Positions 22,200 through 29,916 of a stretch of 64,000 nucleotides of DNA are shown piece by piece. The notes below the pieces were generated by a model. It was not told the origin of the DNA and did no database searches. It worked only from the letters and a program-made list of their open reading frames with translations. The first letter of the stretch is position 1. The number at the start of each line of letters is the position of its first letter. The DNA comes from Acidobacteriota bacterium (GTDB taxonomy: Bacteria; Acidobacteriota; Blastocatellia; RBC074): contig JACPYM010000090.1 of assembly GCA_016196035.1 (NCBI GenBank), positions 1 through 64,000 on the forward strand, written 5' to 3'. A program made the position numbers and the translations under genes.

Positions 22200-22236
22200 G
22201 GCGCGAATTGACTGGTTTTTCCCCTACATTCAAGTG

Positions 22237-22545
22237 CTTGTCATTACCCAAATCTTTGCACAAATTCAGCCCGCGAAGGCGGGCGGCAGCATAAAGCCTG
22301 GGGTGAAGGCATAGCCGGAACCCCAGGAAAGCGACAAATTGAAGCACCCAGCCCGCGAAGGCGGGCGACAGACATTGATTGACTGCCCACGCTCTGCCGC
22401 CCGCCTTCGCGGGCTGGGCGGGTTTTCGCCAATGCTCCCAGGGTTCCGCGCGGGCGCGCTCCACCCTGGGCTTTATGCTGCCGCCCGTCTTCGCGGGCTA
22501 AAAACCCGACCACACGTTTCGTGCAAGGATTTGGGTAATGACAAG
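22237..22545. mobile_element. MITE-like palindromic element with 10-bp target duplication (family B, copy 1)
   Basis: The element is 309 bp. Terminal inverted repeats of 25 bp (22237-22261, 22521-22545) begin CTTGTCATTACCCAAATC, with one mismatch between ends. It is flanked by exact direct repeats CATTCAAGTG (22227-22236, 22546-22555). The interior is non-coding and almost wholly palindromic, built from GCCCGCGAAGGCGGGC hairpins and a GCAGCATAAAGCC segment with its complement. A second member with identical outer ends and its own 10-bp duplication is at 29413-29698. This is the main content of the 424-bp gap 22200-22623. Confidence 0.88.
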
Positions 22546-22584
22546 CATTCAAGTGCAGGCCGAACAAGTTTATTGTGCTAGAGC

Positions 22585-29208: not shown

Positions 29209-29412
29209 CTTGTGAGGTATTCCTTATAGGTATTCTCTACAGTAAGCGGAATGGCCTACCTGCTGAAGGCCACGCACAGGTTTAGGCTAAGTTCGGTTTT
29301 AATTCTTTACTGCTACTGTTCGCGACAAGTTTTATCGGTAGTGGTAAAAATGTAAGGCTGTGGTTTTGCAGCCGCGTAGCGGCGACCCGATTTTAGCCCG
29401 GCGTTTCAACGC

Positions 29413-29698
29413 CTTGTCATTACCCAAATCTTTTCAGTTGCGCGCTGAAGGCGCGACGGACATTAGCCGGTGGTGAAACCACCGGAACCGCGTCGTTATT
29501 GGGTTTACGTCCCGGCAGGGACGCCGGACTCTGATTTATTCGTAAATCAGCTTCGGTCCCAGCGCCCCTTCAGGGCGCGAAAATGGTGGTATCTTTTCCG
29601 GTGGTTCCGCGCAGCGCTTCACCACCGGCTAATATCCACAGCCCTTTCAGGGCCAAAAGCCCGAATCGCCAAACGCGAAAGATTTGGGTAATGACAAG
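29413..29698. mobile_element. Family B MITE-like element (copy 2), nested in the family A element
   Basis: This 286-bp element has terminal repeats CTTGTCATTACCCAAATC (29413-29430 and the complement at 29681-29698), flanked by direct repeats GTTTCAACGC (29403-29412, 29699-29708). Restoring the empty site gives CCCGGCGTTTCAACGCCGGG, itself a palindrome, so insertion was into a hairpin loop. The interior is palindromic (CATTAGCCGGTGGTGAA and its complement) and differs from copy 1. Both target duplications carry TTCAA at the same internal position. Confidence 0.88.
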
Positions 29699-29726
29699 GT
29701 TTCAACGCCGGGAAAGCTTGGCAACG

Positions 29727-29782
29727 GTTCCGCGTCGCGTCAGCGCCGCCTGAATTCAAGCGGCGCTGACGCGACGCGGAAC
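29727..29782. repeat. REP-like inverted repeat inside the family A element
   Basis: Perfect 23-bp arms (29727-29749, 29760-29782), containing GTTCCGCGTCGCGTCAGCGC, flank a 10-nt loop. It lies in the right half of the family A element, making three palindromic layers at this locus. Confidence 0.85.
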
Positions 29783-29916
29783 TGCTGCGCACCGCTACCG
29801 TGGTTTGAAAACCACGGCTAAACTCAACTGTCGCTACGCGACAAAAACTGATGAGCCTTACATTTTTACCACTACCGTTTTATCAAATTAAAAACAACGT
29901 GAGGCGATAGACTTTC

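Follow-up and report, generated by a model that had tools for sequence, protein, structure and literature searches.

A 64,000-nucleotide stretch of an Acidobacteriota genome (GCA_016196035.1, contig JACPYM010000090.1, positions 1 to 64,000; hereafter the window) contains two MITE-like elements which have common ends and are each flanked by a target duplication (Table 1). These elements are most likely MITEs which belong to the IS4 family, in its Tn5/IS50 branch, are served in trans by a Tn5-type transposase, land preferentially on the tip of palindromic hairpins and carry RAYT hairpin arrays as cargo, a reading to which a probability of about 0.87 is assigned.

Table 1. Features of the two MITEs and of the host element in the window
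Feature	Position	Strand	Support
Left target duplication CATTCAAGTG of the 22-kb MITE	22227-22236	+	exact
22-kb MITE, sub-family B, 309 bp	22237-22545	+	ends, duplications, interior alignment, fold
Left terminal inverted repeat CTTGTCATTACCCAAATC of the 22-kb MITE	22237-22254	+	exact 18-mer
Cargo of the 22-kb MITE, hairpin array h1 h2 h3 / h3' h2' h1'	22267-22502	+
Right terminal inverted repeat of the 22-kb MITE	22528-22545	-	exact 18-mer
Right target duplication CATTCAAGTG of the 22-kb MITE	22546-22555	+	exact
8-bp target duplication GTTTTATC of the host element	29329-29336, 29877-29884
Host element, palindromic, MITE-like, perfect inverted ends GGTAGTGGTAAAAATGTAAG...	29337-29876	none
Left target duplication GTTTCAACGC of the 29-kb MITE, at the tip of hairpin CCCGGCGTTTCAACGCCGGG	29403-29412	+
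29-kb MITE, sub-family A, 286 bp	29413-29698	+	ends, duplications, interior alignment, fold
Left terminal inverted repeat of the 29-kb MITE	29413-29430	+	exact 18-mer
Cargo hairpins near Acido-Lenti-1 in the 29-kb MITE	29441-29485	-	34.7 bits (gathering score 37), E 4e-4
Right terminal inverted repeat of the 29-kb MITE	29681-29698	-	exact 18-mer
Right target duplication GTTTCAACGC of the 29-kb MITE	29699-29708	+	exact
Host-element hairpins near Acido-Lenti-1	29798-29843	+	36.8 bits (gathering score 37)

Both elements have perfect 18-bp inverted ends with an exact 10-bp target duplication directly outside. At up to three mismatches, the 18-mer has four matches in the window, all of them exact, against none expected from 100 dinucleotide shuffles. 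An end-to-end stem is predicted for both elements, with a folding energy of -211 kcal/mol for the 22-kb element against -112 (sd 5.3) in 50 mononucleotide shuffles, and of -146.5 kcal/mol for the 29-kb element against -89 (sd 5.4) in as many shuffles. With a limit of 40 aa, the longest open reading frames reach 107 and 73 aa in the 22-kb and 29-kb elements, respectively, and several of these frames cross the element borders. Common 18-bp ends, an exact direct repeat proper to each element, non-coding interiors and end-to-end hairpin folding, all proposed by the initial annotation, were thereby confirmed. An arabinofuranosidase domain (Pfam) on the window stretch adjoining the element is unrelated.

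The 29-kb MITE sits inside one hairpin of a second, different MITE-like element. The right part of the interior of this host element has matches in both RAYT flanks at G000:C105 (G000 being the genome of the window), and its 16-bp end had no other copy among the 301 loci examined.

The window belongs to a 9.59-Mb genome, in which the 18-mer was matched exactly at 16 places and, when up to three mismatches were allowed, at 64; the same pattern read backwards without complementing gave none and one, respectively. These include 22 paired copies of 285-315 bp, further copies being cut by contig ends. Flanking duplications, which the initial annotation had wanted checked genome-wide, accompany most of them: 17 of the 22 have 8-10 bp duplicated with no (10 copies) or one (7 copies) mismatch, and the remaining five have none or a poor one. 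Alignment of the copies revealed a common terminus, CTTGTCATTACCC, followed by a CCCAAATC- or a CCCACATT-type continuation. The conserved end had been given as 18 bp, which is exact for the window elements, but genome-wide only the first 13 bp are strongly common. At least three types of interiors were distinguished, namely A (CCGGTGGT arms), B (CCTGGGGT/CCCAGGGT arms) and C, the latter of unrelated sequence. The 13-mer end was not found in the literature text searched, nor was a description of these elements, as judged by title or abstract start; the family can thus be called new, as had been claimed, at the level of sequence, but its kind, an IS4/Tn5-family MITE, is already known.

Within the class, the exact 16-mer occurs in 6 of 162 genomes, five of them from the window's bacterial family (its own genome included) and one, G019, from another family, while at two mismatches the 18-mer has a match in 9 of the 11 genomes of the window's family. 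Among named genomes, 50 stretches were found to contain the exact 17-mer. In many of them it is single and probably due to chance; it is, nevertheless, repeated near contig ends in one Waddliaceae (Chlamydiae) and one Phycisphaerales genome, and paired in a few others. Viral contigs contained three exact 17-mer matches, with no second end at up to two mismatches in the 13-mer. In total, 55 elements were collected, leaving out those cut by contig ends and two loci of G019 with a single good end each (L186 and L188); on contig L135, one of two candidate right ends was dropped for want of a duplication. The shortest element, of 81 bp, comes from a Chlamydiae genome (L142, 7346-7426) and has the same ends without a duplication. 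Other copies without a duplication (L070, L079, L098 and L045) are flanked by halves of two different REP-like hairpins, one half at each end, an arrangement which could follow from recombination between copies.

The best autonomous partner of these elements is a 1,455-bp IS from the same class (G059:C36), which encodes a 466-aa transposase containing PF14706, PF01609 and PF02281, matched by the NCBIfam IS4/Tn5 models and, at ~4e-33, by Tn5 crystal-structure sequences. Both of its termini read CTTGTCATTACCCACATTTT and are identical over 20 bp to MITE sub-family C; the window ends agree with them at 16 of 18 positions and differ at two. The elements are therefore called MITEs here as short, non-coding, multi-copy sequences with terminal inverted repeats, a target duplication and an autonomous partner with the same ends, the last being found for sub-family C and within the class. 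This IS copy is inserted in a hairpin which, by eye, is of the Acido-Lenti-1 type, and lacks a target duplication because the two loop halves differ, which again could follow from recombination between copies.

In the genome of the window itself, a relative lies at the end of contig C108. Its transposase matches a profile of five Tn5-like transposases at E 4.5e-81, and its stop codon is located 7 bp inside a terminus, CTTGTCATTACCTAG..., whose first 12 bp are those of the MITE ends. The N-terminal part of the protein falls off the contig; in what is left, PF02281 scores just under its cut-off and the NCBIfam model NF033590 over it. IS4 transposases are defined by a DDE triad and a Y(2)R(3)E(6)K signature. 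In an alignment of five transposase relatives, D88, D185, Y317, R320, E324 and K331 are invariant, and the signature can be read by eye in both the C108 fragment (YAPRWLVEEFHKALK) and the G059 protein (YSHRWLIEEYHKCLK). A further Tn5-like transposase fragment of this genome, at the end of contig C98 (loci L248 and L301), runs in frame into a different gene and is either a truncated copy or an assembly chimera.

The N-terminal domain of the Tn5 transposase (PF14706, Tnp_DNA_bind) was found in none of 12 genomes (the window's family, with its own genome, and G019) and, therefore, no complete autonomous copy has been assembled in the window's family or in G019. Among 16 genomes with the 17-mer end, PF14706 was present in four and not found in 12. 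In three of these four, from Chlamydiae, Hydrogenedentota and a cyanobacterium, the 17-mer lies within ~120 bp of the domain; the PF14706 gene of Fischerella has no such end beside it. The transposase of G155 possesses all three Tn5 domains. Similarly, in three of five plasmid IS4 loci, the ends share TTACCCA and are accompanied by 9-10-bp duplications: Hymenobacter (ends CTTAGCCTTACCCAAACT, 10 bp), Nostoc (CTATCCATTACCCACATC, 9 bp) and Caballeronia (CTCAGGATTACCCACAA, 9 bp at one mismatch). No end pair was found for the Polaromonas plasmid copy, and the end pairs of the E. coli plasmid copy are weak, with six mismatches. Domains and termini thus argue that the window elements are non-autonomous relatives of Tn5 (IS4 family). 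As for the active transposase which had been predicted to reside elsewhere and to recognize only the ends, a Tn5-family IS with matching ends does occur (G059), but the window's own genome shows only the truncated relative at a contig end; the transposase would presumably need no more than the ends.

The interior of the 22-kb element, of type B, has 71 matches in its own genome, many of which represent both strands of one palindromic place. When 16 long B-type copies were compared, Tn5-like ends were recognized in ten, and no trace of them in six; the array therefore exists independently of these ends. The two halves of B flank a Y1_Tnp (RAYT) gene (G000:C91:22643-22987) in inverted order, being 90-92% identical to the flanks over their best 65-68 bp. 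Interior A has matches on either side of the RAYT at G000:C88 (E 7e-8 and 8e-7) and at RAYTs of G019, and interior C has matches on a single side of the RAYT at C33 of the window's genome. Five array queries gave matches at 11 of 33 RAYT loci (105 kb; 33 of 51 Y1_Tnp matches, from five genomes), and none at seven control loci (65 kb) or at five plasmid loci (27 kb). In a tree of the arrays, copies with and without ends are interspersed, with supports of 0.42-0.97 and possible gene conversion between arms. The likeness to RAYT flanks indicates that the cargo is a RAYT (Y1 tyrosine transposase) hairpin array and not random sequence. The interiors do differ, as had been reported under the term of unlike cargo, but they stem from one kind of source.

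Some of these arrays resemble an annotated RNA. Over the 33 RAYT loci, the Acido-Lenti-1 family (RF01687), which Rfam lists as an sRNA with a two-hairpin unit, has 16 matches at E <=0.05, four of them above the gathering score. They are distributed over ten loci, at nine of which they lie within ~200 bp of the gene and at six of which they form inverted pairs around it (L265, L266, L268, L271, L284 and L292). None was found at the seven control loci (65 kb, all from the window's genome). Of two family matches in the window, one belongs to the 29-kb MITE and the other to its host element; both narrowly miss the gathering score. At E <=0.05, the B-type 22-kb element is not matched. Matches of the palindromes to Rfam 'mir' families were all under the gathering scores and were rejected as hairpin noise. 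Because it often flanks RAYT genes, at six loci as inverted pairs, Acido-Lenti-1 may represent a hairpin of REP DNA and not an RNA.

Target sites were analyzed after omission of 12 of the 55 elements, which have no duplication at up to one mismatch, leaving 43 sites: 33 from the window's bacterial family, three from other phyla and seven from G019. These sites are non-independent, as they belong to REP families and related genomes. Duplications are of 9 bp in 26 cases, 10 bp in 13 and 8 bp in four. The target duplication of Tn5 is ~9 bp long, with the consensus GNTYWRANC, and the 26 nine-base duplications (all genomes) score on average 6.04 of 9 against this consensus, compared to 4.41 for random 9-mers. 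A preference for TTCAA had been suggested from the two window sites; however, TTCAA or TTGAA is present in only 8 of the 33 family duplications and is therefore not the target rule, several of these cases being explained by REP loops of the type GTTGAAAC.

The position of the duplications is better accounted for by palindromes. Three scans with different slack and loop limits were used; the neighbour positions overlap and, as the sites are not independent either, p-values derived from them exaggerate the significance. A stem score of at least 6 centred on the duplication was obtained for 20 of the 33 family sites, versus 5.9% of 2000 neighbour positions, and a score of at least 7 for 17 sites, versus 2.3%. 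Searching the best hairpin within 15 bp either way, 21 family sites have one, and in 18 of these 21 the dyad is at most 1.5 bp from the midpoint of the duplication. A REP foot (TAGCC on the left or GGCTA on the right in the 55-bp site) is present at 18 of the 33 sites, against a background of 3.0% of 20,000 random positions in loci of the window's genome. For some sites, unoccupied paralogous hairpins hold the duplicated bases once, as does CCGTGGGTTGAAAACCCACGG beside the C105 RAYT gene; all empty sites encountered were paralogous, none orthologous. This pattern has exceptions: 12 of the 33 family sites have no hairpin of score 6 in the 15-bp search and 13 fall under 6 in the duplication-centred scan, and in the third scan the 22-kb window site scores only 4. 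Two of the three usable sites from other phyla score at least 6. Insertion at a REP axis, as known for ISRm22, was thus encountered in the family and at none of the seven sites of G019, most of which lie in 7-bp tandem repeats. At loci L115, L184, L185, L187, L189 and L190 of this genome, the MITE ends are mostly found in repeats of the GGGTTCA or GGGTTCC type, which possibly form a quadruplex. Collectively, a preference for the tip of palindromic hairpins, combined with a Tn5-like base preference, fits these sites better than the TTCAA motif.

A mechanism can be proposed based on these observations. A Tn5-type DDE transposase, supplied in trans, would recognize the terminal ~13-20 bp (CTTGTCATTACCC...), excise the MITE and paste it into a staggered cut of 9 or 10 bp, leading to the target duplication. 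Target choice would involve two layers: within the duplication, certain bases would be preferred as in Tn5, and insertion would strongly favour the dyad, or tip, of palindromic hairpins, many of which have a RAYT REP foot. The hairpin might be read as a cruciform, as a single-strand hairpin or as a bent symmetric duplex. As for the cargo, a RAYT-type hairpin array would have been captured by, or assembled between, Tn5-like ends, presumably when transposons inserted into a REP array or to either side of it and the transposase gene was later lost.

Other explanations account for part of these data. The base consensus might act alone, as in Tn5, its symmetry being matched by chance in REP loops and no structure being read. 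The 9-bp duplications do fit GNTYWRANC above chance, and repeat sites of G019 such as GTTCAGGGT and GCTCAGGGC also fit much of the consensus; on the other hand, loops as different as ATTCTCAAC, GCTGGCAGC and GCAGGTGTC are used in stems scoring 7-10, all centred within 2.5 bp, and this explanation is considered less likely than not. Ordinary Tn5-like MITEs inserting at random could, alternatively, appear enriched in hairpins by surviving in intergenic repeats, since only harmless insertions are visible, and 13 of 33 family sites and 7 of 7 G019 sites score under 6. Survival alone, though, would hardly place the dyad so close to the midpoint of the duplication, nor does it agree with the scarcity of such stems at neighbour positions of the same loci, which makes this explanation improbable.

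The elements could also be RAYT/REPIN repeats moved by the Y1 tyrosine transposase, the ends being merely the outermost conserved part of the array. Arrays indeed occur at RAYT genes and alone elsewhere, and in the tree those with ends are mixed among those without. Nevertheless, the six long B-type copies without ends contain nothing like them (the best 13-mer match having 5-7 mismatches), while the other ten have them, and copies with ends mostly have 8-10-bp duplications. Y1 elements are not known to produce such duplications. Moreover, the same ends adjoin Tn5-type transposase genes, and an autonomous Tn5-type IS has matching ends. Movement by the Y1 enzyme is thus regarded as highly improbable, and transposition of Tn5-type MITEs into hairpin tips is retained as the favoured reading.

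These elements define a candidate group of Tn5-type transposons with a natural preference for hairpin tips, mainly in Acidobacteria-related genomes with single examples in one TM6 and one Parachlamydiales genome, and offer a concrete case which can be tested. They suggest how intergenic regions come to contain palindromic repeats one inside the other, with bacterial repeats hosting and spreading one another. They also call into question an annotated RNA family, which may consist of transposon-linked DNA hairpins, with consequences for genome annotation. A broader view, tentative and held at somewhat less than even odds, is that a Tn5-type clade spanning phyla lands on hairpin tips, the REP palindromes of RAYTs, and carries the same RAYT arrays as non-autonomous cargo, one lineage thereby spreading the repeats of another; the Acido-Lenti-1 'RNA' would then be a RAYT hairpin, and the G-rich 7-bp repeats of G019 would suggest that an unusual DNA structure is read and not a sequence.

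Several known systems can be compared with these elements. Similar to Tn5/IS50, the partner transposase has the three Tn5 domains and matches Tn5 structures, the ends begin with CT and have TTA at positions 8-10, and the duplications are centred on 9 bp with a GNTYWRANC-like bias. In contrast to Tn5, the ends are CTTGTCATTACCC(A)AAT instead of CTGTCTCTTATACACA, 10-bp duplications are frequent, the hairpin-tip preference is strong and short forms carry repeat-array cargo. REP palindromes are already known as IS targets, and the closest precedent is ISRm22 of Sinorhizobium meliloti, a member of the IS4 family which occupies the axis of REP palindromes and for which a link to the palindromic targets of Tn5 has been made (Tobes and Pareja, 2006; PMC1525189). 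ISRm22 differs by its 6-bp duplications and, in the part of that article available, is described as an IS alone, without MITEs or RAYT-array cargo. With regard to Acido-Lenti-1 (Weinberg et al., 2010; PMC2864571), both the host element and the A-type cargo come close to the gathering score of the family without reaching it, but what Rfam lists as an sRNA here often flanks RAYT genes. Finally, REPIN/RAYT (TnpA-REP) elements are a known system (PMC3116915; PMC8266576), and tyrosine transposases have been linked to REPs in Acidobacteria (PMC3733652). The cargo arrays resemble the repeats beside Y1_Tnp genes and many target hairpins share the REP foot, whereas the arrays described here are enclosed by Tn5-like ends and presumably moved by a DDE transposase with target duplication.
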